A DNA stretch of 39,503 bases, taken from assembly GCA_030840445.1 (NCBI GenBank), contig JAVEEN010000191.1:1-39503 (forward strand), read 5' to 3'. The notes below the pieces were generated by a model. The model had not been told where the DNA came from, ran no database searches, and saw only the letters and a list, made by a program, of their open reading frames with translations. Below, piece after piece: positions 2,237 through 36,687 of the stretch. Numbering within the stretch: position 1 is the stretch's first letter; the number at the start of each line of letters is the position of its first letter. The position numbers and the translations under genes are program-made. Origin of the DNA: Pseudonocardiales bacterium. GTDB taxonomy: Bacteria; Actinomycetota; Actinomycetes; Mycobacteriales; Jatrophihabitantaceae.

Positions 2237-3856
2237 CTAGTTGATGCAGCCCGCATCGGCCGCGGTGGTCACCGGCACCGACGAGGAGGTGCTCGGCGTG
2301 CTTGCCTGCGGGGCGGTGGTCTTCGGGGTCGTCGGCATCAGCGATGTGACCTGGACACCGTTGTTGCCGAGCAGCAGCGTCACGCCGGTCACGGTCGAGG
2401 ACCGCACCATGACCGCCTGCGGGACCTGTGCCTGCAGGGCCTTCGCCGCGCTCTCCTGTCCCTTCGCGTAGCGGATCGTGGTCTTGGCCAGCACATCCGA
2501 GGTCGGCGCGGGCACCGTGGTCTTGAACCCGGCCGCGCGCAGCGCTGCGGCGTTGGTGTTCTCCAAGCCGTTGGAATCGCTGTCGTTTAGCACCGTGACG
2601 TTCACCGAACTCGGCGCAGCGGCCTTGGCGTTCTTCAGGGCGCTCGCAGCGTCGACCCCGATCAAGCTGTCGACGAAGTCCGGCATCGCCTGCGTATCGA
2701 CGACGACCACGTTCTGGGTGCCGCCGTCGATCTGCACATCCTGGGTTCCGTTGATCGGGATAGTGGTGAACTTGATGTTGCCCGCCTGCAGGTTCTGCAT
2801 CTGCTGAGCCAGCTTGAGCGGATCGAGTCCGGTGTGTCCGGCGGAGTCACCATCCAACTGCAACGACTTGGTGATGGCCTTGAGCAGGTTCTGCAGCTTG
2901 AAGGGGTTGAGCAACGTCCTGGCGGAGGACATCTTGCGGAACACCGCGGACAGGAAGTACTGCTGGCGCTTGATCCGGTCGAGGTCACCGCCGGGGAGTC
3001 CGTGGCGCTGCCGGACGAAGGCAAGTGCGGTCTTGCCCTGGATGACGTGATGCCCCTTGGACAGCTTCAACTGCGAGTAACCGTCGTCGACATTGTTGTT
3101 GAGGCAGATGTCCACCCCACCGATGGCGTCGGAGATTCGAACGAAACCGATCAGGTCAACCTGGACGAAGTGGTCGACGCTCAGCCCGGTCAGGTTCTCG
3201 ATCGTCTTGACCAGCAACTGAGCACCGCCGGACTTGTCACCGTTGGCGTCTGCGATCCCGTCGGTGTACGCAGAGTTGAGCTTGGCCTTACCATGTCCCG
3301 GGATGTCGACATAGGAGTCCCGCGGGAAAGAGATCACAGTGGCCTTGCTGCCGTCTGCCGGGACGTGCATCAGCATCATCGTGTCGGTGTTGAGGCTGCC
3401 GCCGTCGCGGCCGATTCCGAGCGCTCTCAACTCCGCGTCGGTGGCCGTCTCGCGGTCATCATTGCCGACGATGAGAATGTTCTGGTCGGAACCGTCGATA
3501 TTGTTTTTCGATGCCGCCGTGCCGCCGGCCGGGATCGCCGTCACGCGGGGAATGTTGGCCTTGAAACTGCGGTACTGGGCCCAGGCCCAGCCGCTGCCGA
3601 ACAGCACCGCAAGTGACAGGACCGCCGCGATCACCTGGATGCCCAAGCTGGCGCCGGCGAGGACGTCCGAGCCAGAGCGCTTCGCGGCGCGCCGTTCGGA
3701 TCGGCTCTGGCGGCTTGCGGGCGGCTGGTCCCCGCCGGCGGCGGTGCCCGCGGGGCGGCGGCTCGGAGGCCGTGCGTGGCGCCGGCCACGGGGATCCAGC
3801 TCGGGAGGCAGCTCTCCTGGTCCGGGATGCCCTGGGACGTCGTTGTTGGAAGGCAC
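2237..3856 (-). CDS. LCP family cell-wall glycopolymer ligase with LytR_C domain
   Basis: LytR-CpsA-Psr proteins transfer glycopolymers from polyprenyl-pyrophosphate carriers onto peptidoglycan outside the membrane. This 539-residue protein has a basic, proline-rich cytoplasmic N-terminus (1-65), one membrane segment (about 66-94), an LCP domain (about 124-310) and a LytR_C domain (about 412-510), followed by a Ser/Thr-rich tail. Expected residues are visible: NTDTMMLMHV (156-165), SFPRDSYVDIPG with R179/D180, KLNSAYTDG, and the basic segment RQRHGLPGGDLDRIKRQQYF. It corresponds by position to mycobacterial Rv3267 and is divergent from rmlB. It probably attaches the polymer made by this cluster. 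The GTG start has no Shine-Dalgarno sequence, but a TAnnnT hexamer lies 6 nt upstream. Confidence 0.92.
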   Translation of the reverse strand: MPSNNDVPGHPGPGELPPELDPRGRRHARPPSRRPAGTAAGGDQPPASRQSRSERRAAKRSGSDVLAGASLGIQVIAAVLSLAVLFGSGWAWAQYRSFKANIPRVTAIPAGGTAASKNNIDGSDQNILIVGNDDRETATDAELRALGIGRDGGSLNTDTMMLMHVPADGSKATVISFPRDSYVDIPGHGKAKLNSAYTDGIADANGDKSGGAQLLVKTIENLTGLSVDHFVQVDLIGFVRISDAIGGVDICLNNNVDDGYSQLKLSKGHHVIQGKTALAFVRQRHGLPGGDLDRIKRQQYFLSAVFRKMSSARTLLNPFKLQNLLKAITKSLQLDGDSAGHTGLDPLKLAQQMQNLQAGNIKFTTIPINGTQDVQIDGGTQNVVVVDTQAMPDFVDSLIGVDAASALKNAKAAAPSSVNVTVLNDSDSNGLENTNAAALRAAGFKTTVPAPTSDVLAKTTIRYAKGQESAAKALQAQVPQAVMVRSSTVTGVTLLLGNNGVQVTSLMPTTPKTTAPQASTPSTSSSVPVTTAADAGCIN

Positions 3857-3862
3857 TGTGGG

Positions 3863-3868
3863 AGGCTA
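3863..3868 (-). promoter_or_regulatory. -10 element for a probable leaderless LCP mRNA
   Basis: On the minus strand the hexamer TAGCCT is followed by 6 nt and then the GTG start at 3856. That is the spacing expected if transcription begins at the start codon. A TTGACG lies 21 bp further upstream, too far for an ideal -35 box. Confidence 0.4.
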
Positions 3869-3913
3869 CCGGTGCTGCCTGTGAATCGGCGTCAACCAGG
3901 TGCATGTGACAGC

Positions 3914-4927
3914 ATGCTCGTCATGCGTGTTTTCGTCACCGGCGGCGCCGGGTTCATCGGTTCGCAGTACGTGCGGGAGATCCTCAACGACAAGTTCGAG
4001 GCCTTCGCAGGGGCGCAGGTGACGGTTTTCGACAAGCTCACCTACGCCGGAAACCTGGCCAACCTGGCGCCCGTGGCGGACAGCCCGCGGTACCGTTTCG
4101 TGCAGGGCGATATCTGCAGCGCGATCGATCTGGACGCGGCACTGCCGGGTCACGACGTCCTGGTCAATTTCGCGGCCGAGTCCCACGTGGATCGGTCGAT
4201 CACCGGGGCCGCCGACTTCATCCAGACCAATGTGCTCGGCGCCCAGCAGGTGTTCGACGCCGCGCTGCGTCATCAGGTGGAGCGGGTGGTGCACATCTCC
4301 ACCGACGAGGTTTACGGCTCCATCGACGAAGGATCCTGGACCGAGGACCAACTCCTCGAACCGAACTCGCCGTACTCCGCGGCCAAGGCCGGGTCGGACC
4401 TGATTGCCCGCGCCTACGCCAAGAGCTACGGGCTGAACATCTCGATCACGCGATGCTCCAACAACTACGGGCCATACCACTTCCCGGAGAAGGTCATCCC
4501 GTTGTTCGTGACCAACCTGCTGGATGGGCAGAAGGTGCCGCTTTACGGCGAAGGTGCCAATGTGCGGGACTGGCTGTTCGTGGCCGACCACTGTCGCGGT
4601 ATCCAGCTCGTGGTGGACAAAGGTGCGGCCGGGGAGTTCTACAACATCGGCGGTGGACGCGAACTGTCGAACAAGGAGTTGACCGAACTGTTGCTGGAGG
4701 CAACCGGACGGGACTGGTCCTACGTCCAGCCCATCCTCGATCCCCGCGGCGGCGGCCACGACCTGCGGTATTCCGTGGACTACTCCAAGGTCGCCGAACT
4801 CGGCTACGCCCCGCAGATGACCTTCGAGCAGGGGTTGGCCGAAACCGTGCAGTGGTACCGGGACAACCGGGACTGGTGGGAGCCGCTGAAGGAACGCGCA
4901 GCCCTCGCCCATATCGCCAAGGTCTGA
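3914..4927 (+). CDS. rmlB: dTDP-glucose 4,6-dehydratase
   Basis: This enzyme converts dTDP-glucose to dTDP-4-keto-6-deoxyglucose, the second step of dTDP-L-rhamnose synthesis. The protein (about 337 residues) is an extended short-chain dehydrogenase. It has the NAD-binding motif TGGAGFIGS at the N-terminus, the STDEVYGS segment holding the active-site Thr/Asp/Glu, and the YSAAK catalytic Tyr-Lys pair. The downstream NNYGPYHFPEKVIP and GANVRDWLFV segments are typical of RmlB. Both ATG 3914 and ATG 3923 are possible starts; neither has a clear ribosome-binding site. rmlD follows after 4 bp. No rmlA or rmlC is in the window, so the first and third steps must be encoded elsewhere. Confidence 0.95.
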   Translation: MLVMRVFVTGGAGFIGSQYVREILNDKFEAFAGAQVTVFDKLTYAGNLANLAPVADSPRYRFVQGDICSAIDLDAALPGHDVLVNFAAESHVDRSITGAADFIQTNVLGAQQVFDAALRHQVERVVHISTDEVYGSIDEGSWTEDQLLEPNSPYSAAKAGSDLIARAYAKSYGLNISITRCSNNYGPYHFPEKVIPLFVTNLLDGQKVPLYGEGANVRDWLFVADHCRGIQLVVDKGAAGEFYNIGGGRELSNKELTELLLEATGRDWSYVQPILDPRGGGHDLRYSVDYSKVAELGYAPQMTFEQGLAETVQWYRDNRDWWEPLKERAALAHIAKV

Positions 4928-4931
4928 TCGG

Positions 4932-5819
4932 ATGGCCGACGCTGCCACCCGCTGGCTGATCACCGGATCGCGCGGTCAACTTGGCACCGACCTGCAGCGG
5001 GTGCTCGCAAGAACGCCGGACGACGAGGTCCTGGCCATCCAACACGATGTGTTGGATATCACCGACTCGGCAGCGGTCTCGGCGATGCTGACCGAGTTCC
5101 AGCCGGATGTGATCGTCAACGCGGCGGCGTACACGGCGGTGGACCGGGCCGAGACCGACGAGGAGTCGGCTTACATGGTCAATGCCACCGGACCGGGGGT
5201 GCTCGCCGCCGCTGCGGGTCGGACGGGCGCCCGGCTCGTGCAGGTGTCCACCGATTACGTCTTCGCCGGCGATGCCGACCGGCCGTACGAAGTCACCGAT
5301 CGGCCGGACCCGAGATCGGCCTACGGTCGGACCAAGCTCGCCGGTGAGATCGCGGTGCGCGAATTGCTTCCCGAATCATCCTTCGTGGTCCGCACGGCGT
5401 GGGTGTACGGCGCGGCCGGGGCGAATTTCGTCAAGACCATGGCCCGGCTGGAAAAGACCAACGACACGCTCAGCGTGGTGGATGACCAGCGAGGGTCGCC
5501 CACCTGGTCGGCCGACCTGGCCACGGCGCTCGTCGAATTGGCTCGGTCCGACGCCCCGGCCGGTATCTACCACTGCACCGGCAGCGGGGACACCACGTGG
5601 CACGGTTTCACTCAGGCCATCTTCGCCGAGCTCGGCGCCGACCCGGCGCGCGTGCTACCCACGACCAGCGATCAGTTCGTACGACCGGCTCCGCGGCCGA
5701 GTTATTCGGTGTTGAGCGACCAGGCCTGGCGAGCGGCCGGGCTCACCCCGATGCCGGCCTGGCGCGACGCGCTGCGCAACGCCTTCGCCGAGTCCCGCGA
5801 GGCGTTCACCGCGGGCTGA
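4932..5819 (+). CDS. rmlD: dTDP-4-dehydrorhamnose reductase
   Basis: This enzyme performs the last step of dTDP-L-rhamnose synthesis, NAD(P)H-dependent reduction of dTDP-4-dehydrorhamnose. The 295-residue protein has the Rossmann motif GSRGQLGTDL near the N-terminus, VNAAAYTAVDRAE, STDYVFAGD and the catalytic pair in SAYGRTKLAGE. RTAWVYG and DDQRGSPTW are also typical. The ATG lies 4 bp after the rmlB stop, so the two are co-transcribed. The gene order LCP, rmlD matches the mycobacterial backbone (Rv3267, Rv3266c). In this genome the next backbone gene, wbbL, is displaced by about 19 kb. Confidence 0.95.
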   Translation: MADAATRWLITGSRGQLGTDLQRVLARTPDDEVLAIQHDVLDITDSAAVSAMLTEFQPDVIVNAAAYTAVDRAETDEESAYMVNATGPGVLAAAAGRTGARLVQVSTDYVFAGDADRPYEVTDRPDPRSAYGRTKLAGEIAVRELLPESSFVVRTAWVYGAAGANFVKTMARLEKTNDTLSVVDDQRGSPTWSADLATALVELARSDAPAGIYHCTGSGDTTWHGFTQAIFAELGADPARVLPTTSDQFVRPAPRPSYSVLSDQAWRAAGLTPMPAWRDALRNAFAESREAFTAG

Positions 5820-5832
5820 GCGTGAGTCAGCC
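5814..5832. terminator. Small hairpin between convergent rmlD and GT4
   Basis: GGCTGA (5814-5819) and TCAGCC (5827-5832) form a 6-bp stem with a 7-nt loop. The arms contain the stop codons of the two convergent genes. It could serve both directions, but there is no U-tract. Confidence 0.35.
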
Positions 5833-6966
5833 GACGGCGAATCGGTAACCGGCAACCGTCCGTTCGGCGCACCGCTGCCAGGTGAAAGCCGCCGCGTGCT
5901 GTTGACCGGAAAGGCGATCTGCAGCCGACGGCGGACTGGACAGGCGAGCGAGTACGGCGGCCGCCAGGGCCTCGACGTCGCCCACCGGCACCAGGGTCGT
6001 CATGCGCTGGGCCGCACCTATTACTTCGGTCACCGCAGGGATATCGGAGGCCACGACCGGGGTGCCCGCGGCCAGGGCTTCCAGCGGCGGCAGGCCGAAA
6101 CCCTCATAGCGTGAGGGAAAGGCGAGCATTAGGGCGCCCGAGACGAGGGCCTGCAGCGCGGCCGTGTCGAGGTAACCGGGCACGATCAGACGGTCCGGGG
6201 GGATATCGAAGGTTTCCAGCGCCGGTCCCCAGCCGGCCGGGCCCACCAGGACCAGCGGCGGCAGTTCAGGATCGGCTCGGGACAGTTGCCGGTACGCAGC
6301 CAACAGCACGTCCAGGCCCTTGCGTGGCTCCAGAGCCCCGACGGCCAGCAGGTACTCCGCCGGTAAGCCTGGAAGCGCCGCTATCGCAGAGGTGTCGAAC
6401 CAACTCGGGTCGACACCCAGCGGTGTGGCGTGGACCCGGTCGGCCGGCAACCCGTAAGCCTGGCACACCTCGTCGGCGATGGCCTGTGTCGGCGTGAGCA
6501 CGACCGCAGCGCGCGAGACCGCTCGCGGAACCAGGGTCCGGTAGTCCAACGAGGCACGATCCACCAACTCGGGAAAGCGTAAATAGCTCAGGTCGTGCAC
6601 GGTGAGCACTCCGGCGGCCCGACGCGGCGGTGGCAACACGAAATTCGTGCCGTGCACGACGTCGGCCCGACCCATCACCCATTCCGCCGGCGGTAGATCG
6701 GATCGCAGCCAGCTTCGATGTAACAACCGGGCCGGGACCGGACGGTGCACACCACGCACACCGTTCGGCAATGCGGAAACCACCGATCGACCTCTGAGTG
6801 TGAACGCCGCGGCGCGCACGCTGATGCCCTCGGTGACCGCCAGCTCGTCCAACAGGTGCTCCACATAGCGCCCGATACCGGTGCGCTGGCCGGCCAACGG
6901 CGTGGCATCGAGGGCAACCCGCAGCTGTGCCGGGCCGCGGTCCATCTGGGCTCGGAAAGCGCCCAC
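5827..6966 (-). CDS. Glycosyltransferase family 4
   Basis: This is a retaining GT-B glycosyltransferase expected to add a sugar to a lipid-linked polysaccharide at the inner membrane face. The 379-residue protein shows the N-terminal RVALDATPLAGQRTGIGRYV loop, HGTNFVLPPP, TVHDLSYLRFPE, the sugar-nucleotide region VGALEPRKGLDVLL, and the E-x7-E motif in YEGFGLPPLEALAAGTPVV. It resembles mannosyl- or rhamnosyltransferases of WbpY/WbdB type, but the donor cannot be read from sequence. GTG 6966 directly abuts the upstream stop codon; ATG 6945 is an alternative. It is the last gene of the minus-strand export operon. Two similar GT4 genes lie at 22.7 and 24.0 kb. Confidence 0.85.
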   Translation of the reverse strand: MGAFRAQMDRGPAQLRVALDATPLAGQRTGIGRYVEHLLDELAVTEGISVRAAAFTLRGRSVVSALPNGVRGVHRPVPARLLHRSWLRSDLPPAEWVMGRADVVHGTNFVLPPPRRAAGVLTVHDLSYLRFPELVDRASLDYRTLVPRAVSRAAVVLTPTQAIADEVCQAYGLPADRVHATPLGVDPSWFDTSAIAALPGLPAEYLLAVGALEPRKGLDVLLAAYRQLSRADPELPPLVLVGPAGWGPALETFDIPPDRLIVPGYLDTAALQALVSGALMLAFPSRYEGFGLPPLEALAAGTPVVASDIPAVTEVIGAAQRMTTLVPVGDVEALAAAVLARLSSPPSAADRLSGQQHAAAFTWQRCAERTVAGYRFAVG

Positions 6967-7836
6967 TCAGCTGGGTTTGACGCAATGCCAGATGATGAAA
7001 TGCAAATCCGGGTGGAAGCCGAAGCGGCGCGCTTCACGCTCGTCGGCGACGGCCGTCAGGGTGCTCGGATCGGCATGGCTCAACAGGTCGACTTCATCGA
7101 CGTCGGTGCCGGCCCAGCCCGAGTCGAACTCCTTCCGATTCAGCCGGTCGATCAGCTCCTGGGTGACCAGGCACGTCACCGTGAAGCCGGCGGCCTCCAG
7201 CTGGTCACGCAGGTCCCAGCCGAAGCGCCAGTAGACCAGGGTGTTGTCACCGTGGTACTCCACTGTGACCGGGGGAGCGGTGACGCCCTGTGGCATCGGG
7301 ATCATCAGCATTACCGAGCCACCCGGGGCCATCACCCGAAACAGCTCGTTGACGGCCTTGCCGGTATCCGGTACGTGTTCGAGTACATGGGGGGTGAGGA
7401 TCACGTCCAGGCTCGAATCCGGCAGCTCGAGGTCCTGCAGGTCCAGCCGTACGGTGGCCCGATGCGCGGATTCGTCATAGTCGCTCGCGACATAGTTCAC
7501 CAGGGACGACATGCGGGACCGGTAACGCTGATCCAGCCGCGGACTCGTCTCCAGAACGCGCTGAGCCTCGGAGTACGGGACCAGCTTCGTCCAGCACCAG
7601 TAGAGGAAGCGGTCTCTGGCGATACTCCCACAAACCGGACAGTTCGCGCCCTCGCTGTGGGCATGCCCGAGGAACTCGGCACCGTGCCAACCGCAGATGT
7701 TGCACACTCGCTGGTAGGAGGCCTGGTCCGAAACTGCCTTGGCCGCTTTCCACACCCCCAGGCGGGGATCGGCCAGTTGCTCCCGTTTCAGCAGGAAATG
7801 ACGAAGTCGATTCCGACTTGCTGCGATCAACGACAT
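6967..7836 (-). CDS. Zinc-ribbon class I methyltransferase-like protein
   Basis: The 289-residue protein has an N-terminal putative zinc ribbon (C45-x2-C48 and C66-x2-C69) followed by a Rossmann-type methyltransferase region. The later methyltransferase motifs are clear (LDLQDLELPDSSLDVILTPHVLEHVPD at 131-157 and VMAPGGSVMLMIP), but the SAM-binding loop is unusual: it reads VLETSPRLDQRY rather than a DxGxGxG form. Proteins of this layout occur in surface-polysaccharide clusters, where they may methylate a sugar. Target and activity are unknown. ATG 7836 was chosen over an upstream in-frame start because GGAG lies 8 nt before it. Confidence 0.7.
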   Translation of the reverse strand: MSLIAASRNRLRHFLLKREQLADPRLGVWKAAKAVSDQASYQRVCNICGWHGAEFLGHAHSEGANCPVCGSIARDRFLYWCWTKLVPYSEAQRVLETSPRLDQRYRSRMSSLVNYVASDYDESAHRATVRLDLQDLELPDSSLDVILTPHVLEHVPDTGKAVNELFRVMAPGGSVMLMIPMPQGVTAPPVTVEYHGDNTLVYWRFGWDLRDQLEAAGFTVTCLVTQELIDRLNRKEFDSGWAGTDVDEVDLLSHADPSTLTAVADEREARRFGFHPDLHFIIWHCVKPS

Positions 7837-7875
7837 GACAGTGCTCCGATAGCTCGAACGGGAAGAGATCGGCCA

Positions 7876-7913
7876 GGGGACCAGCACAGGGAGGGGGACA
7901 CGGGGGAAAGATA
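7876..7913 (-). promoter_or_regulatory. G-rich intergenic block with possible internal promoter
   Basis: The 84-bp gap between the GT4 stop (7921) and the zinc-ribbon methyltransferase start (7836) has four G-runs on the plus strand (7876-7879, 7889-7891, 7893-7897, 7902-7906), so the minus-strand transcript is C-rich. A TATCTT hexamer (minus strand, 7908-7913) could be an internal -10 box. Neither function is established. Confidence 0.25.
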
Positions 7914-7920
7914 CCGTGAT

Positions 7921-9471
7921 TCAGGACAGGAGGTCATAGCTATCGGCGAGTTCCTTCCAGCGATGGGCGAAGGCCTCTTCGGAGAATTGACGGACACGTT
8001 GCTGAGCCGAGTCGGACATTCGCGCTCGAAGGTCGGGATCGTGGGCGACCTGCACCGTCCTGATCCGCAATTCACTCTCATCCGACCACCGGAAACCGTC
8101 GACACCCTGGCGCACGATCTCACGCTGCCCCGCCCGGTCGATGACGACCGGTACGCACCCACCGGCCATCGCCTCCGCCGTCGTCATGCCGAAATGTTCA
8201 TTCGTCCATGGCCGCTTCTCGGTGTCTTCCTTGAAGCCGGTCGCCGACCAGAAGATGGCGGAGGAGGACATCAGGCTCTCGACCAGCGACCGTGGCGCGT
8301 TGGGATGGATGTCCACCGGAAGCCCGGCCGCGGCAGCCCGGACCTTGTCCAGGTATGGACGCTGAGTGTCCTCGCAACCGCCCACCACGGCGAGCCGCCA
8401 GCCGTCGATCTGACCGGAGCGGACCAGGCGGCCGAACATCTCGACCATCTCCAGCTGGCGCTTGGAATGCCCGTACCCAGGTGCGAAGAAACGCCCTACG
8501 CTCAGGATTCGCTGCTCCCGGGTGGGGGAGGCCACGATCCGCTCGACCTCGATCGGCGGGAACAGGACCTCCGATTCGACGCCCCACAGGCGGCGGATCC
8601 AGTCCTGGGTATATGCCGAATTGGCCAGCACGACGTCATAGCTGTCGAGGAAGCTGAAGTCCTTCGGATTGCGGCGCAGCCACGGGAACCGGTTGCCGAC
8701 GCGTTCGCCTGCGGTCAAGCCGCTCCCGACATGGGTCAATCGGCTCATGGCGATTCCGAGTTGGCGCTGGTCGAACACCCCTGGGCTGAAGGTGGCCGAC
8801 CGCATCCGGACGTGCCGGTGATTCTCCGAACCGGGCACCGAGATCTCGATCGGCCGGAATTGGCTGCCGACGGTCAATTCGGTCAGGCACCGGCCGTCTT
8901 CCGTCTCCACAGTCAGGTGCACCGCCTCCGAGGCGCCAGGCCGGCCGAGGTCGGCCCGGATGACGCGGGTCGGACCGGGATCGAATACCAACCGGCCGTC
9001 ACCGTTGCTCCAGGCCCACTGCCGGCGTCGGCCTCCTTCGGGCGGGTACCAGCCGGAGCCGTAGCGGAACCCGTGCGTGGCATCAGATTGCTGGACATGC
9101 TTACCCAGCAGCCGAATCGCCGTCCGGTGCGGTGCCGGCAGGTCGTGATCGTGCGGCGTCGGGAAGAAGCACAGGTAAGCACTGTGCCGGGACTGAGCCT
9201 TTACTCGTGACATGTAGGTCGCATTGACGAACAGGTCGTATTCCGACGACAATTCCGACACCGCGTCCTCGCCGAGGTCGGGCGTGACCCGAAGCGTCGT
9301 CCGGCTGAGATCGAGGCCGAGCCGGCCGGCCAGTTCTACCAGTGAAACCTCATGGTGACCGAGCAGTTCGACCTCGGCCTCGGACTGCGAGAGGATCTCG
9401 GCGATCATCGCCGAATGTCGCTCACCGCCGCCCATCGAGTGCCAGAACCGGTCATAGATTGCGGCTTTCAT
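7921..9471 (-). CDS. GT-B glycosyltransferase (GT4-like) with inserted beta-rich domain
   Basis: The 516-residue protein starts as a GT4 enzyme (KAAIYDRFWHSMGGGERHS, with a glycine-rich acceptor loop) and ends with the GT4 donor half (ILSVGRFFAPGYGHSKRQLEMVE, then EHFGMTTAEAMAGGCVPVV). Between them, at about residues 128-250, is an extra segment with Trp/Gly-rich alternating hydrophobic sequence (GWYPPEGGRRRQWAW...), which looks like a beta-sandwich. This makes the protein about 120 residues longer than an ordinary GT4. ATG 9471 overlaps the upstream stop as ATGA, so it is preferred over ATG 9486. The neighbouring GT2 gene has a similar-looking insertion. The sugar donor is unknown. Confidence 0.82.
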   Translation of the reverse strand: MKAAIYDRFWHSMGGGERHSAMIAEILSQSEAEVELLGHHEVSLVELAGRLGLDLSRTTLRVTPDLGEDAVSELSSEYDLFVNATYMSRVKAQSRHSAYLCFFPTPHDHDLPAPHRTAIRLLGKHVQQSDATHGFRYGSGWYPPEGGRRRQWAWSNGDGRLVFDPGPTRVIRADLGRPGASEAVHLTVETEDGRCLTELTVGSQFRPIEISVPGSENHRHVRMRSATFSPGVFDQRQLGIAMSRLTHVGSGLTAGERVGNRFPWLRRNPKDFSFLDSYDVVLANSAYTQDWIRRLWGVESEVLFPPIEVERIVASPTREQRILSVGRFFAPGYGHSKRQLEMVEMFGRLVRSGQIDGWRLAVVGGCEDTQRPYLDKVRAAAAGLPVDIHPNAPRSLVESLMSSSAIFWSATGFKEDTEKRPWTNEHFGMTTAEAMAGGCVPVVIDRAGQREIVRQGVDGFRWSDESELRIRTVQVAHDPDLRARMSDSAQQRVRQFSEEAFAHRWKELADSYDLLS

Positions 9472-10859
9472 CGCGGTACCAACCATTGCTGAAGATCGCC
9501 TTTGCGAACATGTGCCTTTCGCGCAAGGCTAATGCGGTGCCGCAGAGCGGCAGGCAAGTGGGTGCTGTAGGAGCCGAGAACGCGCCATCTCAGCAGCAGG
9601 GCGCGCAGCCCTGGCCGGCGTCGTCGAACCAGGAGTTGCCGGGCCGCTACCGCACTGAGGACCAGGGACTCGCGCAGATATCCACCCACCGCCGCCCGGG
9701 CCAGATCGGCGGTGGCGTTCTTGGTCAGCATCAACATCCGGTTGCGCTCGACATGGAACACCCAGCGTGGCGACCACTCTTTGCTGCTGGCTGCGTGGAT
9801 GTGCCGCAGCACGGCGGAGGGCTCGTAGCGAATGTGCCAGCCGGCCGAGCGCCACCGCCACGACAGGTCGGTGTCCTCGTAGTACATGAAGAATGCGTCA
9901 TCGAACCAACCGATCTCGTGGCCGATCGCGGCGCGCATGGCCATCCCGTTGCCGCAGGCGGTGAAGACTTCGGCTGGTTCGTCGTACTGGCCACGGTCGA
10001 CCTGCTGAAACCCCCGGTCACCGCCGGAACCCTCCGCGAAGACCTGGCCTCCGGCGTTGTTGATCACGTCGAAGACGGGGGTACCAGCCTCGATGTCCAC
10101 CGATAGGGTGCTCGGTTCGCTGGTCACCTGCACGGCAACCGGCCGGCCGTTGACGATGAGCGTGAGCTGCTTGGCGCGCTCGCCCGCGACCGACATGGTC
10201 ATCCGAACGGGGCGTTCGACGGACTTCGATCCAGCCGCGTCGCCGGGCAGCGGCACCAGAAAAGTCCCGGCAGGTCGCGACCAACGGAACCGGCCGGAAC
10301 CGGAGCCCTCCGGACCGTAGACCGCCTGCTCCCACAGGATCTTGTCACTGACCTCGACGCCGTCCACCTCGACGCCGTGGATCCGGACTCCGAGGTCGCG
10401 GGTGTCCGAGCTGTTCGGTTGGAAACCTTCGGTGTTCAAGGCCACCTCGGCGAATTTCGGCAGGAAGAGCACCTTGCCGGTCACGATGCCGATATCGACG
10501 TTGCCGGGCGCGCTGAACACGGCCAGCAGGTTCGCCAGCCATCCCGGCTCCGGAACCGCGTCATTGTTGAGCAGCACCGCGTACGGCGTTCGGACCTCCC
10601 GCAGCGCGACATTGTTACCGCCGGCGAAGCCGAGGTTGTCGGCGTTGGCCATGACCCGAACCCAGGGATAGTCCCGGGCGAGCAGTTCCAGCGATCCGTC
10701 GGCGGATGCGTTGTCGACCACTACCGTGTCGAAGCTCAGCTCATCCGTGCGGTCAGCGGACGTCAGGACCTGGCGTGCCAGCCCGTCCAGGCAGGCTGGC
10801 AACAGGTGCGCCCCGTTGTAGTTCACGATGATCACGGTGGCCATTGCGGTGCTGGACAC
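9468..10859 (-). CDS. Family 2 glycosyltransferase with inserted beta-rich domain
   Basis: This is a GT-A inverting enzyme of the rhamnosyltransferase type. It has ATVIIVNYNGAHLLPACLDGL at the start, VVVDNASADGS (47-57), NLGFAGGNN (75-83) and the metal-site region LLNNDAVPEPGW (96-107). The catalytic-base region is FFMYYEDTDLSWRWRSAG (323-340). An ordinary relative, such as the gene at 13867-14907, runs from NNDA straight to a NNAG...DEPAEVF segment. Here about 115 residues (about 151-264) are inserted, with the motif YGPEGSGSGRFRWSRPAG and beta-like alternation. The GTG start lies 2 bp after the upstream TAA. Probably a sugar transferase of the exported polymer; the insertion may bind glycan. 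Confidence 0.85.
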   Translation of the reverse strand: MSSTAMATVIIVNYNGAHLLPACLDGLARQVLTSADRTDELSFDTVVVDNASADGSLELLARDYPWVRVMANADNLGFAGGNNVALREVRTPYAVLLNNDAVPEPGWLANLLAVFSAPGNVDIGIVTGKVLFLPKFAEVALNTEGFQPNSSDTRDLGVRIHGVEVDGVEVSDKILWEQAVYGPEGSGSGRFRWSRPAGTFLVPLPGDAAGSKSVERPVRMTMSVAGERAKQLTLIVNGRPVAVQVTSEPSTLSVDIEAGTPVFDVINNAGGQVFAEGSGGDRGFQQVDRGQYDEPAEVFTACGNGMAMRAAIGHEIGWFDDAFFMYYEDTDLSWRWRSAGWHIRYEPSAVLRHIHAASSKEWSPRWVFHVERNRMLMLTKNATADLARAAVGGYLRESLVLSAVAARQLLVRRRRPGLRALLLRWRVLGSYSTHLPAALRHRISLARKAHVRKGDLQQWLVPR

Positions 10860-10861
10860 AG

Positions 10862-11749
10862 TTACGCTTCCGGACTTCTCGATGGGGCCCCAGGCACGGG
10901 ACGTCGCGCGACGACATAGGTTTCATTCGGTGGATAAAGCTCTTCCAGCAGCCGTTGATAGGCCGTTTGCTGGCTCACCAGTTGGTGTTGTACGACCTGC
11001 AGCCTGTCATCGAGTACGCCGATGAGGTGAACCAGCCGCTGCACCGTGTCGGTCAGGACCGTCCGGGGGTCCTCGTGCGGCTGGCGGAAGCGTCGCTGCT
11101 CCTGCTCGGCCGCCACCTGCATCCCGGCGAGCACCTGGTTCAGATCCTGTTTGAGGTCTGCGAACGACTCAGTTGGCGAGTTGTGTAGCTGGGCCGGCGC
11201 GCCCGGGTGGTTCAGCGGATTACCGCCGGTGTCGGTGACCTCGAGGCCGGCCTGACGGGCGAAGAATTCCAGCGCTACCGGGTCGTAGAACCGCACGTGC
11301 GTCGGATCTCGCCAGAAGTCATGACCCAGCACCGACAGGCACGCGGCGTTCGGCACGGCGGCCACGAATACGCCGCCGGGCCGGAGCACCCTTGCCGCCT
11401 CCAGGTAGACGCCCGACGCGACTTCCGAGGGCAGGTGTTCGATGAAATGCGCGGCGAACAGCCCACCGAGTGAAGCGTCCTGCACCGATTTCAGGTAGGC
11501 CAGGGCGTCGTCGAGGACGACCTCGTGACCGCGCTCCGCGGCTTGTTCGACCATTCCCGGGTCGAGGTCGACACCGCGCGCCGAGATGCCGGCGGAGTCC
11601 AGCAGATCCAGAAATACCCCTGGACCACAGGCCAGTTCCAGTACCGGGCCTTCGGTGAAGTATCCCACGTAGTTGCTCAGCACCTTGTGGGCGTTGGCGT
11701 AGTCGAATTCCCGGAAGGCGTAGTACTGGCTTTCGGTTCGATCACTCAT
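10862..11749 (-). CDS. SAM-dependent methyltransferase with C-terminal coiled coil
   Basis: The 295-residue protein has a class I methyltransferase domain (about 1-180) with VLELACGPGVFLDLL (36-50, SAM loop), GVDLDP (59-64) and HFIEHLP (101-107). A long helical tail follows (about 196-272) with leucine/valine heptads (for example VLTDTVQRLVHLIGVLDDRL), indicating a coiled coil. Its ATG overlaps the wzt stop as ATGA. In ABC-exporter O-antigen systems, WbdD-type proteins join a terminating methyltransferase (plus kinase) to a coiled coil that measures chain length. This protein has a methyltransferase and a coiled coil but no kinase. A role in capping the polymer is inferred from that likeness and from the coupling to wzt. 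Confidence 0.8.
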   Translation of the reverse strand: MSDRTESQYYAFREFDYANAHKVLSNYVGYFTEGPVLELACGPGVFLDLLDSAGISARGVDLDPGMVEQAAERGHEVVLDDALAYLKSVQDASLGGLFAAHFIEHLPSEVASGVYLEAARVLRPGGVFVAAVPNAACLSVLGHDFWRDPTHVRFYDPVALEFFARQAGLEVTDTGGNPLNHPGAPAQLHNSPTESFADLKQDLNQVLAGMQVAAEQEQRRFRQPHEDPRTVLTDTVQRLVHLIGVLDDRLQVVQHQLVSQQTAYQRLLEELYPPNETYVVARRPVPGAPSRSPEA

Positions 11750-12933
11750 CCGGTGGCCACCTGCGTGGTGCCGACCTGGTAGTCGACGCCGATGATGCCC
11801 AGCTGGTGTTCGGACTCGATCCCGAACGCGTGCTGAGTCCGGTGATAGGTGATTAGCTCTTCGTCCTCGGTGAAAAGCTGGATGATCAAGACGAACCGGC
11901 CCTTGACCGGTGGGCTCTGCGGAACGAAGAAGTCGAATTCCCAGGTCCCCGGACCGTCCGGCAGATCGTCATCAGTGGCGGTCATGGTCCAGATCGGGAT
12001 GTCACCGACCCCGAGCACCACCGCGCGGACCGTGTGCAGTGCTTTGACACTGTTGGCCCCCAAGGTCATTTCCACCTTGGCCGCAAAGGCCGAGCCTGCG
12101 GGAAATATCGACACCCCTGGTCCGTCGGGACGATCGCTGAACACCACCGGGCCGAAGGTGATCTCACCTTCCGGCCCCTCGTCCGGAATGGAATCCGGAC
12201 GATCAGTGCCCAACAGTTTCTGCAATTCGGCCACCGCGAAGTACGGGTCGCCGTCGAAGCGAACCTGTCCGTGGTCGAGCAGGATGGCGCGGGTACACAC
12301 CTTCTCGATCAGCTCCGGGGAGTGACTGACGAACAGAATGGTCTTTCCGGCCTGCTGGAACTCGGCGATCTTGTTCAGGCACTTGCGCTGGAAGTGTTCA
12401 TCGCCCACCGCCAGGACTTCGTCCACCAGCAGGATGTCCGGATCGACATGCACCGCGACCGCGAAACCGAGCCGGACGTACATGCCGGAGGAATAATGCT
12501 TGACCGGATTGTCGATGAACTCGGCCAGTTCGGCGAACTCGACGATGGAGTCGTACAGCTTGTCCGTCTCGCGCCGGGTCAAGCCGAGCAGGGAGGCATT
12601 GAGATAGATGTTCTCGCGGCCCGAGAGCTCACCGTTGAATCCGGCACCCAGCTCCAACAGCGAGGCGATCCGGCCCCGAGCCTCGACAGCTCCCTCGGTC
12701 GGTCGGAGGATTCCGGCCAGCACCTTGAGCAGGGTGGACTTACCAGATCCGTTCGCGCCGATCAGGCCCACGCTCTGCCCGTGCGCGATCTCCAGTGACA
12801 CATCGCGCAGCGCATAGAAGTCCACGCTCGCGGCCTTGCGCCGGACCAGGCGCTCCTTGATGCTGGTGGCCCGTTCGGTGTGACTTGCGAATCTCTTGCT
12901 CACCTCGTGCGCGGTGATGGCGGCATCGGTCAC
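11746..12933 (-). CDS. wzt: Polysaccharide ABC exporter ATP-binding protein (Wzt-like) with C-terminal extension
   Basis: This is the ATPase of a polysaccharide exporter. The nucleotide-binding domain (about 1-240) has Walker A GANGSGKST (59-67), the signature YSSGM (147-151), Walker B DILLVDE (166-172) and the switch histidine H204. LGAGFNGELSGRENIYLNA is typical of the Wzt/TagH group. Residues about 255-395 form a further beta-rich domain like the Wzt C-terminal domain, which in Gram-negative bacteria recognises the modified end of the polymer. Such an extension predicts that this exporter selects capped chains, which fits the coupled methyltransferase downstream. The GTG start is 2 bp after the wzm stop. 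Confidence 0.9.
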   Translation of the reverse strand: MTDAAITAHEVSKRFASHTERATSIKERLVRRKAASVDFYALRDVSLEIAHGQSVGLIGANGSGKSTLLKVLAGILRPTEGAVEARGRIASLLELGAGFNGELSGRENIYLNASLLGLTRRETDKLYDSIVEFAELAEFIDNPVKHYSSGMYVRLGFAVAVHVDPDILLVDEVLAVGDEHFQRKCLNKIAEFQQAGKTILFVSHSPELIEKVCTRAILLDHGQVRFDGDPYFAVAELQKLLGTDRPDSIPDEGPEGEITFGPVVFSDRPDGPGVSIFPAGSAFAAKVEMTLGANSVKALHTVRAVVLGVGDIPIWTMTATDDDLPDGPGTWEFDFFVPQSPPVKGRFVLIIQLFTEDEELITYHRTQHAFGIESEHQLGIIGVDYQVGTTQVATG

Positions 12934-12935
12934 GC

Positions 12936-13796
12936 CTAGAGCTCCTCAGCAAAGTCGGCGGACAGCCGCCGGTAGGTGCTGGTGCCCAGCCAGAGCAACA
13001 ACAACGAGATGACGGCGCCGACACCCAGGCGCTCGAAGTAGAAAAGGTAACCGGGATCGGCCAGTACGTGATCGCCGTTGGCCAGCACGACGTCCTTGGC
13101 GTAGAGGGCTCGCTGCATGGCGGTGGTGACTCCTGCCATCGGGTTCAGGTAGTAGGCGTTGGCCAGGCCGTGCCGGTTCAGTTCCTTGGTGACCTGGGCG
13201 ATCGAATACACGATCGGATTGACCCAGAAGCCGGCCATCAACACCACTTCGACGATGTGCTTGGTGTCGCGGTAGCGGACATTGAGCCCGGCCACCAGGT
13301 ACGCCAGGCCGACCGTGAAGAGCATCGCGACGGCCAGAGCCGGGATGAGCAGCAGCAGGCCCGGACCGAGCACGGAGGTGAACCCGGTGGCCAGCATGAC
13401 GACCAGCAGGACGAACAACTGCAGCACGAAGTGGACCAGGTTGAAGCCCACGGCGGTCATCGGCAGGATCCCCAGCGGGAACCGGACCTTCTTCACCAGG
13501 CCGGAGTTGCCGACAACGGATTCGGTGGCCGTGCTGACCGACCCGGAGAACATGTTCCAGACCAGCAGGCCGGACAGCAGGTAGAAGCCGAACTGCGGGA
13601 TACCGTTCTTCAGAACGACGCCGAAGACGAAGCTGTACACGACCAGTAACAGCAGCGGGTTGGCCAGGGACCACAAAAAGCCCAACACGCTGCCCTGGTA
13701 CTTGACCTTGAGGTCCTTGCGGATGAGGCCGACCAGCAGCTCCCGCCGTACCTGGCGCTGCGCGCGCGCTCGTTGGTCGATGCTCGTGGCACTCAC
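12936..13796 (-). CDS. wzm: Polysaccharide ABC exporter permease (Wzm-like)
   Basis: This is the membrane component paired with Wzt, exporting a polyprenyl-linked polysaccharide across the cytoplasmic membrane. The 286-residue protein has an N-terminal amphipathic region (LLVGLIRKDLKVKYQGSVLG) followed by about six membrane segments, including LLLLVVYSFVFGVVL and IVYSIAQVT near the fifth and sixth. This is the ABC-2 type permease layout of Wzm/TagG. Upstream in-frame codons exist to 13883, but GTG 13796 has AAGGAG 6 nt before it and gives the usual family start, so it was chosen. It is transcribed with the GT2 gene 70 bp upstream. Confidence 0.9.
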   Translation of the reverse strand: MSATSIDQRARAQRQVRRELLVGLIRKDLKVKYQGSVLGFLWSLANPLLLLVVYSFVFGVVLKNGIPQFGFYLLSGLLVWNMFSGSVSTATESVVGNSGLVKKVRFPLGILPMTAVGFNLVHFVLQLFVLLVVMLATGFTSVLGPGLLLLIPALAVAMLFTVGLAYLVAGLNVRYRDTKHIVEVVLMAGFWVNPIVYSIAQVTKELNRHGLANAYYLNPMAGVTTAMQRALYAKDVVLANGDHVLADPGYLFYFERLGVGAVISLLLLWLGTSTYRRLSADFAEEL

Positions 13797-13866
13797 CTGG
13801 GCTCCTTCGAGTGTCGTGGGCGGATCGGTGGTGGCTCGACCCACGGTCATGCGGCAGAACCGGCAG

Positions 13867-14907
13867 TCAGAATAACCCGCCACGGCGGGGAACCCACGCT
13901 GTCACGATGTCCTGCCGGCTCAACACAGCCGATCGAGAGACCGATTTACGCGCTTTCAGGGCCCACCCTATGTGTCCGAGCACACCGCCAATTGCCCTCA
14001 TCCGCACGCCGGTGCGAAATACCGCAACCTCCGGTATCGGCTGGCCCAGGCGCCGACGCACAGCAAGGGACAAGGTGGTCAGTCCGAAGCGGACGAGCTG
14101 AGCCCACGCGAAGCGCAGCGGCGCGCAGCGCAGCAACATCAACAACCGGTTCCGTTCGTTGTAGAAAGCGAACACTTCCGACATCCGGTCCGTCGACGCG
14201 GCGTGGCGGTGCAGCACGACCGCCTCGGGTTCGTAGCGAACCCGGTAACCGGCCAGCCGGAGCCGCCAGGCGAGATCGGTGTCTTCGTAATAGAGGAAGA
14301 ACTCGGCCGGCATGCCGCCGACCGAGCGAACGTGATCGGTTCGCAACACCGCGGCGCCGCCGGAGAAGCCGAAGACCTCAGCCGGCTCGTCGAACGGGGC
14401 GCCGTCCGGCTCGCCACCGCCTCGGTCGGTGCCGTACCCGTCCTCGGTAAGCCGGACCCCGGCGTTGTTGATGATCGGTGGCCCGTCGTCGGGATCGGTC
14501 CAGAGCAGCATCTTCGCCGTCACGGCGGCAGCGTCGCGGTGTTCAGCCAGCGCGGCCAGCGAGCGCTCCAACCACTCGGGCTCGGCTCGGGCGTCGTTGT
14601 TGAGCAGTGCCATGAACGGCGTGTGCACGAGCGGCAGCGCCGCGTGGATTGCGCCGGCGAACCCGGTGTTGTGCGGCAGCCGATGGACCCTGGCCTGCGG
14701 ATATCGCTGATCGAGCAGCTCGGCGGTGCCATCGGTCGAGGCGTTGTCCATCACCAGCACGTTCGGTGCCAGGGTCTGGGCGGCGAGCGAGTCGAGGCAG
14801 GCCGGGAGCAGATGGGCGCCCTGCCAGGTCACCACGACCACGGTGACATCGCGTCCGCTGCCGGCGGGGGTCGTGTCGCCGGTGGTGGGGCCGGCGGACT
14901 CGATCAC
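13867..14907 (-). CDS. Family 2 glycosyltransferase (rhamnosyltransferase-like)
   Basis: This 346-residue GT-A enzyme has VVVVTWQGAHLLPACLDSL (23-41), VMDNASTDGT, NTGFAGA and LLNNDARAEPEW at the metal site. FFLYYEDTDLAWRLRLAGY marks the catalytic-base region. It is a compact relative of the insertion-bearing GT2 at 9468-10859 and of the WbbL-like gene at 25150. It is the first gene of the minus-strand exporter operon. The GTG start has no Shine-Dalgarno sequence, but TACTGT lies 6 nt upstream, which suggests a leaderless mRNA. The sugar donor is unknown; dTDP-rhamnose is likely given rmlB/rmlD nearby. Confidence 0.87.
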   Translation of the reverse strand: MIESAGPTTGDTTPAGSGRDVTVVVVTWQGAHLLPACLDSLAAQTLAPNVLVMDNASTDGTAELLDQRYPQARVHRLPHNTGFAGAIHAALPLVHTPFMALLNNDARAEPEWLERSLAALAEHRDAAAVTAKMLLWTDPDDGPPIINNAGVRLTEDGYGTDRGGGEPDGAPFDEPAEVFGFSGGAAVLRTDHVRSVGGMPAEFFLYYEDTDLAWRLRLAGYRVRYEPEAVVLHRHAASTDRMSEVFAFYNERNRLLMLLRCAPLRFAWAQLVRFGLTTLSLAVRRRLGQPIPEVAVFRTGVRMRAIGGVLGHIGWALKARKSVSRSAVLSRQDIVTAWVPRRGGLF

Positions 14908-17308: not shown

Positions 17309-19912
17309 ATGAAGTCGTCAACGCGTGCCCGCGCGCTCGGCGCGGTGGCCACGGCCGGAATCCTGGTGACGGGCTTACTGACGGCGACCACCTGGTCAGC
17401 TCATGAGGCCGGGGCTGAGGTCATCACGCCCACCACTTCCGGGGTGTGGACCGTGGCCGGCCACGGTTTCGGCCACGGCCACGGCCTGAGCCAGTACGGA
17501 GCCCGCGGCGCCGCTCGCCCGGCCGCTGGGCGTAAGGGCTTGACCGCGGCGCAGATTATCGCTTTCTACTACCCGGGGACGGTCCTCAAGACGCTCACGC
17601 AGCCGAGCATCCGGGTTCGGATCGGTGCCGACGGCGGCGCCACCACCGTCGCAGTGCCGGCCGGGCAGAGGATCACGCTGAGTTGGACCGGCGGGAAGCT
17701 TTCGACCACTTCGGCCGGAGCATCGAGGCTGCGGCTGGTGCCGAGCGGCACCGCCGGAAGGCTGCAGGCGCAGTACTTCAAGACGAGCTGGGTCAACTGG
17801 GGCCCGACGTTACCGGCCATCGCCAATTTCGCGTCCTCAGCGGGCTCGCTGCGGCTGCTGCAACCGTCGGGCTCCACCGAGCTGCGCGGGTCCGTGGGCG
17901 CGGTTCTCGATGCGAGTCTCGGGCGGATCACCGTGAACCGGCTGCCGCTGGATGCCTATGTGCAAGGCGTGGTGCCACGCGAGATGCCGGCGTCCTGGGA
18001 GGCAGCCGCGGTTCAGGCGCAGGCCATCGCCGCACGTAGCTACGCGCGCTACGCCGTCGAGCACAACAGTGGCGCCAGCTTCGATATCTGCGATTCCAGC
18101 AACTGTCAGGTGTACGGCGGCGAAGCCCATTACAACACCTCCGGCTCGCTCCTGTACGGCGAGGTGACGGCCTCCAACCAGGCCGTGGCGGCCACTGCGA
18201 ACCAGGTTTCGACATATCAGGGTGCGACGATCTTCGCGCAGTTCTCCTCCAGCGACGGTGGCTGGACTTCCGGCGGCGGCAAACCGTATCTGCCGGCCAA
18301 GGCCGATCCGTACGCCGCCAACGCCGGCGACCCGAACCTGAACTGGACCGAGCAGGTCAAGGTGTCCGATGTCGCGGCCCGGTACGGGCTGGCTCACCTC
18401 AGCCAGATCTCCATCACCGGACGCGACGGACATGGCGAGTGGGGTGGGCGGGTGCTGTCGGCGACCGTCTCCGGAACCAACTCGGCCGGGCACCCGGTAT
18501 CGATCCCGACCTCCGGCTCCGCGCTGGCTTCGGCGATGGGGCTTCGCCACGAGTGGTTCCACGTCACCGCGGTGCCTCCTGCCGCGCCGGCCTCGGTTAC
18601 GGCTTCCTCTAGGGACGCCGCGGCCCTGGTTTCCTGGACACCACCGGCCAGCAGCGGCTCGGACGCGATCACCGGATATTCGGTGACCGTGGCCAATGTG
18701 CAGCGCGTCGTGGTCGGCGCGGGCAGCCGATCGGCCTGGGTCGGCGGCTTGCACAATGGCGGCAGGTTCGTGGCATCGGTTCGTGCGATCAGTTCCGTCG
18801 GCGAAGGCCCGCCGGCCGATGTGACCCTCAGCCCGATCGCAGCTCCCCAGGACGTCCGGGCGGTTCCAGCCCTGCGCATCTATGACTCTCGCCCCAGCAA
18901 GGTTCCGGCGACCGCGACGAGTCCATTGAACTTCGGCGTCGGCGGGCACGGCTCCATCCCGATCGGCGCGAGCGCGGTTCAGCTCGCGGTCACCATCGTG
19001 GCACCGACAGCGTCGGGCACCCTGCGGGTCTACAACGACGGTTCGGCCACGCCGGCGGCCACCGCGATCGCCTACCGGGCCGGCCGGACCATTACCGCAA
19101 CGGTGTCCGTTCCCCTCACCACGAGCGGGCGGGTGGTGTTCCGGCCTACCGCCGGTGCGATGCACCTCGTGCTGGATCAGCTGTCCTACTCGACCCCCAC
19201 CGCGTCCCGGCTGACGGCCAGGGCGCCGGGCCTGCTGCTCGACTCGGCCAGAATCGGGGTCGGCGCGGGCCGCACGCTGTCGGTCGGTAGTGCGGTTCCG
19301 GCCCAGGCCACGGCCGTGGTGCTCCAGATTCTCGGCGCGAGTTCGGCCGGCTCGGGCTGGGTCCGCGTCTGGCAGCAAGGCACCGCACCGCTGGTCAGCC
19401 AGCTGTCGATCCCGCCGGGATCCAGGAGCAGCAACACGGTCATCGTGCCCCTGGCGGCTAACAAGACCGTTCGAATCGCTGCCAGCGCCACCACGATCGG
19501 CGGTCAGGTCAGCCTCGTCGGATTCCTGGCACCCTCGGGCACCGGGCGCTTCGAGGTGGTCCCGATCACCGGCACCGCCGACACCCGCGCCCGGGTGGGT
19601 GCTGATCTCAGCGTCTCCCGGACGGCCACCGTGCTCAAGCTCGCCGGTAAACCGCAGTTGCCGGCGTCGGCCTTCAGCGCCGTCCTGTTGCACCTGACCG
19701 TGTCCAACGTCAGCGGTGCCGGCCAATTGCGCGTCTACGCCGACGGTGCCGCCGTGCCGCGCGCCGTGACGGCGCCGCTCAGCAAGGGCCTGGGTGATTC
19801 CACGACGGTGTTGGTTCCGGTCAGTTCCGCCGGTTCAGTGCGGTTGGTGACCGACGGAGCTACGGCAAAGGTTGCGGTGGACATCGCCGGTTACGTGACG
19901 GCGGGCCCCTGA
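17309..19912 (+). CDS. Secreted SpoIID/LytB-domain protein with Fn3-like and three GY-type repeat domains
   Basis: The 867-residue protein has a Sec signal peptide (basic start, then a hydrophobic stretch to about residue 28, cleavage near AGAEV). GHGFGHGHGLSQYGARGAA (51-69) and the core VVPREMPASWEAAAVQAQAIAARSYA (221-246) mark a SpoIID/LytB domain; E225 lies where SpoIID, a lytic transglycosylase for stripped glycan strands, has its catalytic acid. Two cysteines (261, 266) may form a disulfide. A fibronectin III-like segment follows (about 425-510), then three repeats of about 110 residues. It is probably a wall-remodelling or wall-bound surface protein. AGGAG 8 nt before the ATG supports the start. 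Confidence 0.85.
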   Translation: MKSSTRARALGAVATAGILVTGLLTATTWSAHEAGAEVITPTTSGVWTVAGHGFGHGHGLSQYGARGAARPAAGRKGLTAAQIIAFYYPGTVLKTLTQPSIRVRIGADGGATTVAVPAGQRITLSWTGGKLSTTSAGASRLRLVPSGTAGRLQAQYFKTSWVNWGPTLPAIANFASSAGSLRLLQPSGSTELRGSVGAVLDASLGRITVNRLPLDAYVQGVVPREMPASWEAAAVQAQAIAARSYARYAVEHNSGASFDICDSSNCQVYGGEAHYNTSGSLLYGEVTASNQAVAATANQVSTYQGATIFAQFSSSDGGWTSGGGKPYLPAKADPYAANAGDPNLNWTEQVKVSDVAARYGLAHLSQISITGRDGHGEWGGRVLSATVSGTNSAGHPVSIPTSGSALASAMGLRHEWFHVTAVPPAAPASVTASSRDAAALVSWTPPASSGSDAITGYSVTVANVQRVVVGAGSRSAWVGGLHNGGRFVASVRAISSVGEGPPADVTLSPIAAPQDVRAVPALRIYDSRPSKVPATATSPLNFGVGGHGSIPIGASAVQLAVTIVAPTASGTLRVYNDGSATPAATAIAYRAGRTITATVSVPLTTSGRVVFRPTAGAMHLVLDQLSYSTPTASRLTARAPGLLLDSARIGVGAGRTLSVGSAVPAQATAVVLQILGASSAGSGWVRVWQQGTAPLVSQLSIPPGSRSSNTVIVPLAANKTVRIAASATTIGGQVSLVGFLAPSGTGRFEVVPITGTADTRARVGADLSVSRTATVLKLAGKPQLPASAFSAVLLHLTVSNVSGAGQLRVYADGAAVPRAVTAPLSKGLGDSTTVLVPVSSAGSVRLVTDGATAKVAVDIAGYVTAGP
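18869..19897 (+). repeat. Three tandem surface-domain repeats within the SpoIID protein
   Basis: Residues about 521-630, 641-742 and 751-863 share one pattern: a start like RIYDSR, LLDSAR or TADTRA; then a P-x-x-A-x-A-V strand (IGASAVQLAV, AQATAVVLQI, ASAFSAVLLH); a G-x-L/V-R-V-Y/W strand; T/N-x-x-V-x-V-P-L; and a closing strand ending in LDQLSY, VGFL or VDIAGYV. The repeats are divergent, so the duplication is old. Similar domains are common on actinobacterial surface proteins. Confidence 0.65.
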
Positions 19913-31337: not shown

Positions 31338-31343
31338 CCTCAA

Positions 31344-36507: not shown

Positions 36508-36638
36508 CCTCTGCCGAGCCCCGCGCCGCCTTCGCTGTGCCCCTCCTTCGGCTGCCCAAGCGGTCGGAGTCTGTGAGTGTGAGACTGCCCTACGGGGCCG
36601 CCGATGTGCACGCCGGTCAGCCCGCTGGCGAGGATCGG

Positions 36639-36644
36639 TAGGCT
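36639..36644 (+). promoter_or_regulatory. Possible -10 box of the phosphomannomutase operon
   Basis: TAGGCT lies 43 nt before the ATG at 36688, giving a leader of about 37 nt with AGGAG at 36672-36676. The rest of the 180-bp gap from 36508 has three CCTTCG-containing near repeats and a small AGTCT/AGACT inverted repeat (36568-36572, 36582-36586), with no assigned role. Confidence 0.35.
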
Positions 36645-36687
36645 GGCGGCCGTTCGACCTTCCACGAAACTAGGAGTCACCGTCGCC

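Follow-up and report, generated by a model that had tools for sequence, protein, structure and literature searches.

The stretch of DNA analysed here (the window) is a single 39.5-kb contig of an actinobacterial draft genome (4.34 Mb, 402 contigs), and its guanine-plus-cytosine content lies at 63–71% in 2-kb steps. Its minus strand carries a set of genes for GT2b, Wzm, Wzt, MTcc, GT2a, GT4b, MT2 and GT4a, with an LCP transferase gene beyond a plus-strand rmlB–rmlD pair (Table 1). Our subject is the pair formed by Wzt, the ATP-binding subunit of the exporter, and MTcc, a methyltransferase with a helical arm. Both reading frames and their ATGA overlap were found as an earlier note on this DNA had placed them. 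Pfam, other searches and a structural model all identify MTcc as a class I methyltransferase with an S-adenosylmethionine (SAM) methyltransferase domain. Its only Pfam matches are to methyltransferases, with no fused glycosyltransferase domain and, as the note had held, no kinase domain (E 0.01). The closest named relative is a 'Pseudonocardiales bacterium' metagenome-assembled genome, 94% identical across the methyltransferase, followed by 'Frankiales' and other actinobacterial assemblies of this kind at 45–50%. Between the window and the 94%-identical relative L005, the ratio of nonsynonymous to synonymous substitution rates in the core is 0.14.

The earlier note had described MTcc as a methyltransferase joined to a heptad-rich helical tail. 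The methyltransferase and the heptad-rich helix stand, but the tail does not. The AlphaFold model of MTcc (predicted local distance difference test (pLDDT) 80.7, predicted template modelling score 0.70) places helices at residues 197–220 and 228–271, the longer one spanning 44 residues. In the model, as in the complete orthologues, the conserved strand NExYVVAR comes after these helices and completes the methyltransferase sheet. The helices are thus predicted to be an internal insert between strands 6 and 7. This insert measures 73–90 residues in each of the 14 distinct sequences with full coverage of the region; counts were taken on distinct sequences, the window included, because several loci repeat the same record or sequence (L005/L019, L006/L022, L007/L026, L008/L020, L010/L029 and L009/L126). 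On a home-made heptad score, which is not COILS, MTcc reached 0.37, the highest among 22 scored window open reading frames (ORFs), and the runner-up scored 0.29. One of the 22 is the minus-strand ORF 3866–4963, which was set aside as antisense to rmlB and still scored. The background of 216 ORFs, which includes spurious ones as well as a few of the methyltransferases in question, has its 95th percentile at 0.34 and its 99th at 0.43. Of 15 distinct family sequences, 14 retain a high score, from 0.37 to 0.46, and the remaining one is truncated. Periodicity against shuffled sequences is modest (p ~0.009 for the window and below 0.05 in 11 of the 14).

The region between strands 6 and 7 is often variable in class I methyltransferases, and related methyltransferase domains from the order (L032, L034) have only a short segment there. 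Both observations would suit a plain sugar methyltransferase in which the insert is a mere structural or substrate-binding lid that contributes nothing to chain length, recruitment or export. We regard such a lid as very improbable, given a heptad score and an insert length that are maintained in all 14 complete sequences. Most likely, the arm makes MTcc oligomerise and/or dock onto the neighbouring glycosyltransferase or Wzt, and a minimum chain length may also depend on it.

The earlier note had also likened the layout to that of WbdD, in which the coiled coil follows the catalytic domains and precedes a membrane helix and a polymerase site (PMC3482155, PMC11231755, in the sections cited). 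MTcc shares with WbdD the character of a methyltransferase of an ABC-exporter system with a helical, potentially oligomerising part. In the model, it has only 13 residues past the last strand, with a pLDDT of 46 in the final block, and most relatives stop within a few residues of that strand. Neither the model nor the complete orthologues show a WbdD-like C-terminal amphipathic membrane region or polymerase-recruiting region. The WbdD-like layout is therefore unsupported, since the helical part is an insert and the C-terminal membrane and polymerase region is absent. A coiled coil that spans from a membrane-bound polymerase to the methyltransferase site and acts as chain-length ruler would agree with the conserved heptad helix and with the coiled-coil terminators for which such rulers are described (PMC11231755, cited section). 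However, the best heptad stretch of MTcc covers just residues 245–272, and the succession of catalytic head, coiled coil and membrane foot with polymerase is lacking. Hence, evidence for MTcc as a ruler is weak, and we consider a WbdD-like ruler improbable. By another geometry, the arm could still bring in a partner or impose a minimum length.

Wzt has a Wzt/TagH-type nucleotide-binding domain (NBD), its membrane partner Wzm is present, and ~145 residues extend past the NBD, close to the ~140 proposed earlier. The NBD sequence is of the same family as in teichoic acid and galactan exporters; unlike the window Wzt, the galactan exporter model, 244 positions long, has no C-terminal sugar-binding domain. 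As the NBD was badly modelled (pLDDT ~35), only the C-terminal domain of the Wzt model was used. Fold comparison assigned it to the Wzt-type jelly-roll, all six best structural matches being Aquifex Wzt and the top one an Aquifex domain bound to 3-O-methyl-mannose. On this structural ground, the region is predicted to have the Wzt carbohydrate-binding fold, in line with the domain assignment of the note. The relationship is seen by fold comparison only: sequence searches with the domain retrieved no Wzt relative, and Pfam Wzt_C (PF14524) matched neither the window Wzt at E 0.01 nor anything in its own genome at E 10. Profile–profile alignment with 11 Wzt_C sequences gave a probability of 47 and an E-value of 2e-4 for that single comparison. 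The only sequence hit, to SfiI (E 0.045), was treated as chance.

From these parts we infer, tentatively and at slightly under an even chance, that MTcc is a methyl-only chain terminator. The GT2 and GT4 enzymes of the cluster would build a lipid-linked, probably rhamnose-containing cell-wall polysaccharide in the cytoplasm. MTcc would O-methylate its non-reducing end and so stop growth, and the Wzt C-terminal domain would bind the methylated end and let the polymer enter the Wzm/Wzt channel. After export, the chain would be joined to the wall by the LCP enzyme, whose expected role is attachment to peptidoglycan. LCP matches occur also in L065, L067, L069, L072, L074, L076, L077, L126 and L127, and none was found in the searched stretches of L075 and L128–L133.

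A methyl-only cap read by Wzt has been shown in Aquifex and proposed for Gram-positive Geobacillus, so both the cap and the setting are known ideas. In the cited part of PMC9445017, Aquifex aeolicus Wzm/Wzt (8dky, 8dku) recognises a methyl-only cap, a 3-O-methyl group on its O antigen, and its Wzt combines an NBD with a carbohydrate-binding domain of equal fold. That system differs in serving the O antigen of an outer-membrane cell, and its Wzt has no sequence-level match to the window domain; pocket residues, aligned by eye, also appear to differ. In Geobacillus stearothermophilus, as described in the cited sections of PMC2943079, WsaE adds a 2-O-methyl rhamnose cap, the wzm, wzt and wsaE genes overlap, and Wzt is predicted to bind the methylated chain. 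The window cluster resembles this Gram-positive S-layer glycan cluster in its adjoining and overlapping wzm, wzt and methyltransferase genes, and we count the rhamnan nature of the glycan as a further likeness. In contrast, WsaE unites a methyltransferase with two glycosyltransferase domains in a single protein, and its product goes to the S-layer protein. WbdD of E. coli provides both kinds of cap according to the cited parts of PMC3482155 and PMC11231755, methyl only in O8, without a kinase domain, and methyl phosphate in O9a, with one. Among the open-licence papers searched, no methyl-capping coiled-coil methyltransferase with Wzt was reported for Actinomycetota.

Gene linkage is consistent with a coupling of MTcc and Wzt. 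Among five relatives checked, the 4-base wzt–MTcc overlap recurs in L005, L006, L007 and L010 and is absent in L008. The order Wzm–Wzt–MTcc–GT2a–GT4b is kept in six of the seven long MTcc loci of order relatives (L005, L006, L007, L008, L010 and L133). The genes are reshuffled, with MTcc still in the cluster, in the seventh locus (L074) and in a distant-family locus, L126. L128 showed no Wzm or Wzt match within 13.5 kb. Of 298 order genomes, 14 have MTcc (E <1e-60), all of them among the 15 with the window-type Wzt domain (E <1e-40). Only 4 of the 284 genomes lacking MTcc match the Wzt-domain profile at 1e-5. The class search matched one of 393 other genomes at 1e-40, and that only partially; the phylum search found full-length MTcc in three distant-family genomes, all three with the Wzt domain, and a partial match in G895. 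Altogether, every one of the 17 genomes with MTcc also has the window-type Wzt domain.

Several points weigh against the capping interpretation. Because 12 MTcc cassettes went into the Wzt-domain profile, an equal number of the 17 co-occurrences arise by construction and five are free of it (G079, G053, G167, G325 and G338), which lowers our confidence in capping. In G325 and G338 MTcc and the Wzt domain lie on separate contigs, which was not taken as evidence because of possible contig breaks, the L127 contig beginning within Wzm. Nor does co-occurrence isolate the MTcc–Wzt link, because the whole cassette travels together, mostly in one family. Moreover, G068 (L075) and G019 (L132) keep Wzm–Wzt–GT2a–GT4b–GT4a with no MTcc between Wzt and GT2a. 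The 19 kb searched in G019 contain no match to the methyltransferase queries and no ORF with a coiled-coil score over 0.29, and the six ORFs scanned with Pfam include no methyltransferase. The Wzt domains of these two genomes are 27–29% identical to that of the window, as against 26–34% in MTcc holders outside the genus. Strict co-occurrence as proof of coupling is thus weakened by these two cassettes, the circular profile and the joint travel of the cassette. We also considered that the C-terminal domain was swapped upon MTcc loss and rejected this, as pairwise identities are similar with and without MTcc; the profile fit in G019 (E 2.6e-13) is poorer than in holders outside the profile (1.1e-18 to 6.1e-57). 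The G019 cassette (L132, 5208–11462) has a Wzt C-terminal domain and, by the searches made, no methyltransferase nearby.

In the main rival to capping, internal methylation, the targets of MTcc are sugars within the repeat unit or linker; Wzt would then recognise a different cap or a sugar motif, and chain growth would be ended by MT2 or a glycosyltransferase. This reading is favoured by the two cassettes that have this kind of Wzt and no MTcc, and by the presence of MT2, a second methyltransferase in the cluster that could be the cap enzyme instead. A third point is Trp362 of Aquifex Wzt, which stacks on the methyl group (PMC9445017, cited part). In an alignment made by eye only, this residue (YHW) is apparently Arg (YHR) in the window, and the ligand of the window Wzt may therefore differ. 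Set against internal methylation are the overlap kept in four of five relatives and the five co-occurrences free of construction. In addition, 5 of the 17 MTcc genomes lack MT2, which was found in 12 of 18 genomes searched, a figure that offers no fair contrast because the 18 were selected for MTcc or its Wzt domain. On balance, we judge internal methylation unlikely while taking it seriously, and keep terminal capping by MTcc as the working interpretation.

Such parts are nothing unusual for an actinobacterium: Wzt_C was found in 108 of 198 phylum genomes. Of 40 Wzt_C loci hand-picked from these, for the most part with high scores, 14 have a methyltransferase-like ORF touching Wzt or within 250 bases of it. 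The search behind this count was home-made and iterative, and self-hits inflate its E-values. Pfam backs 10 of the 14 at E 0.001, nine above a family cut-off, one of which (L113) is on the opposite strand; the ORFs of L084, L090, L097 and L100 had no Pfam match. An arrangement of this general kind is thus not rare in the phylum, and the window represents a variant of it.

Within the window genus, G017 (L069) has another Wzm and a Wzt with canonical Wzt_C (E 2.3e-25). Its 318-aa methyltransferase (11402–12358, minus) ends in a true C-terminal coiled coil (score 0.44) with a basic end, and the cassette lies between LCP/rml and SpoIID/GT2c. A similar set in G086 (L072), also of the window genus, adjoins rml and LCP and includes a tail-type methyltransferase (10981–11955, minus). 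G068 has an extra tail-type methyltransferase of 392 aa (score 0.39; L075, 2343–3521, minus), a 74% relative of which stands alongside MTcc in G053. L130 encodes one of 395 aa (13497–14684, minus; score 0.50), and in L077 the coiled coil lies ahead of the methyltransferase. In L083 (9560–11688, plus) two similar tail-type coiled-coil methyltransferases follow Wzt immediately in tandem, the first being supported by Pfam. The methyltransferases of L069, L072 and L083 resemble MTcc in adjoining Wzm/Wzt and in having no kinase match where scanned, and differ in that their coiled coil is a true C-terminal tail. Unlike the window, L069 and G483, the source of L083, have a Wzt_C recognised by Pfam. 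As a separate observation, the tail-type methyltransferases of L069, L072, L075 and L130, with a basic end and near Wzt genes, are closer to the WbdD layout than MTcc is. One chromosomal slot (2237–14907 in the window, compared with L069 and L072) also seems to hold differing exporter cassettes within one genus, which resembles serotype switching, here of a wall polysaccharide.

These alleles raise a more speculative idea, that MTcc embodies a new terminator design in which oligomerising or spacer helices are looped between the last two strands of the methyltransferase. In concert with a Wzt domain of divergent sequence, such a capping enzyme would measure or gate the length of wall polysaccharides in Actinomycetota. 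The other allele at the same locus would be a tail-type coiled-coil methyltransferase with canonical Wzt_C. We consider this design distinctly unlikely.

Table 1. Features of the exporter cluster and adjoining genes in the window.
Feature	Position	Strand	Basis
MTcc, class I SAM-dependent methyltransferase, 295 aa, ATG start; putative chain-terminating O-methyltransferase	10862..11749	-	
MTcc methyltransferase core, residues 1–180 (LELACGPG, HFxEHL, DPTHVRFY)	11210..11749	-	alignment of 7 sequences and AlphaFold model
MTcc helical insert, residues ~181–271, predicted between strands 6 and 7	10937..11209	-	model secondary structure
MTcc best 28-residue heptad stretch, residues 245–272	10934..11017	-	home-made heptad score 0.37
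MTcc last sheet strand, residues 276–282, past insert	10904..10924	-	alignment and model
ATGA, wzt stop overlapping MTcc start	11746..11749	-	
Wzt, ATP-binding subunit with C-terminal carbohydrate-binding domain (predicted), 395 aa, GTG start	11746..12933	-	
Wzt NBD, residues 1–242	12208..12933	-	Aquifex Wzt NBD match E 1.8e-68
Wzt C-terminal carbohydrate-binding domain (predicted), residues ~252–395	11749..12180	-	fold comparison
Wzm, ABC-2 membrane subunit, 315 aa	12936..13883	-	ABC2_membrane E 7.7e-16; galactan Wzm model E 7.3e-24, under that model's cut-off
GT2b, GT2 glycosyltransferase, 346 aa	13867..14907	-	Pfam
GT2a, GT2 glycosyltransferase with long mid-domain insert, gene right after MTcc	9468..10859	-	
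GT4b, GT4 glycosyltransferase, 521 aa	7921..9486	-	
MT2, second methyltransferase of the cluster, 306 aa; rival candidate for cap	6967..7887	-	Pfam
GT4a, GT4 glycosyltransferase, 379 aa	5827..6966	-	
rmlD, dTDP-4-dehydrorhamnose reductase	4932..5819	+	TIGR01214 above cut-off
rmlB, dTDP-glucose 4,6-dehydratase	3776..4927	+	TIGR01181 above cut-off, residues 52–371
LCP family glycopolymer transferase	2237..3856	-	LytR_cpsA_psr E 1.7e-49; TIGR00350 above cut-off

The real start of rmlB probably lies ~50 codons inside the annotated ORF. The mid-domain insert of GT2a spans ~130 residues, is beta-rich by eye and is aligned across by relatives; it could be a sugar-binding module. Adjoining the cluster, 17309–19912 (plus) encodes a protein with SpoIID and fibronectin type III domains, and SpoIID matches recur near the cassette in L065, L067, L069, L126, L127 and L129. 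Farther along, F420 genes (28975–31343, minus) encode CofD and an F420 ligase fused to NUDIX, with genes for a mannose-1-phosphate guanylyltransferase (25920–27125) and a phosphomannomutase family enzyme (36604–38061) nearby.

If MTcc caps the chain and Wzt reads the cap, the logic known from O antigens would extend to the LCP-linked wall polymers of Actinomycetota. The relatives, with a tail-type coiled coil, an internal arm or cassettes without such a methyltransferase, form a natural test series for this proposal.
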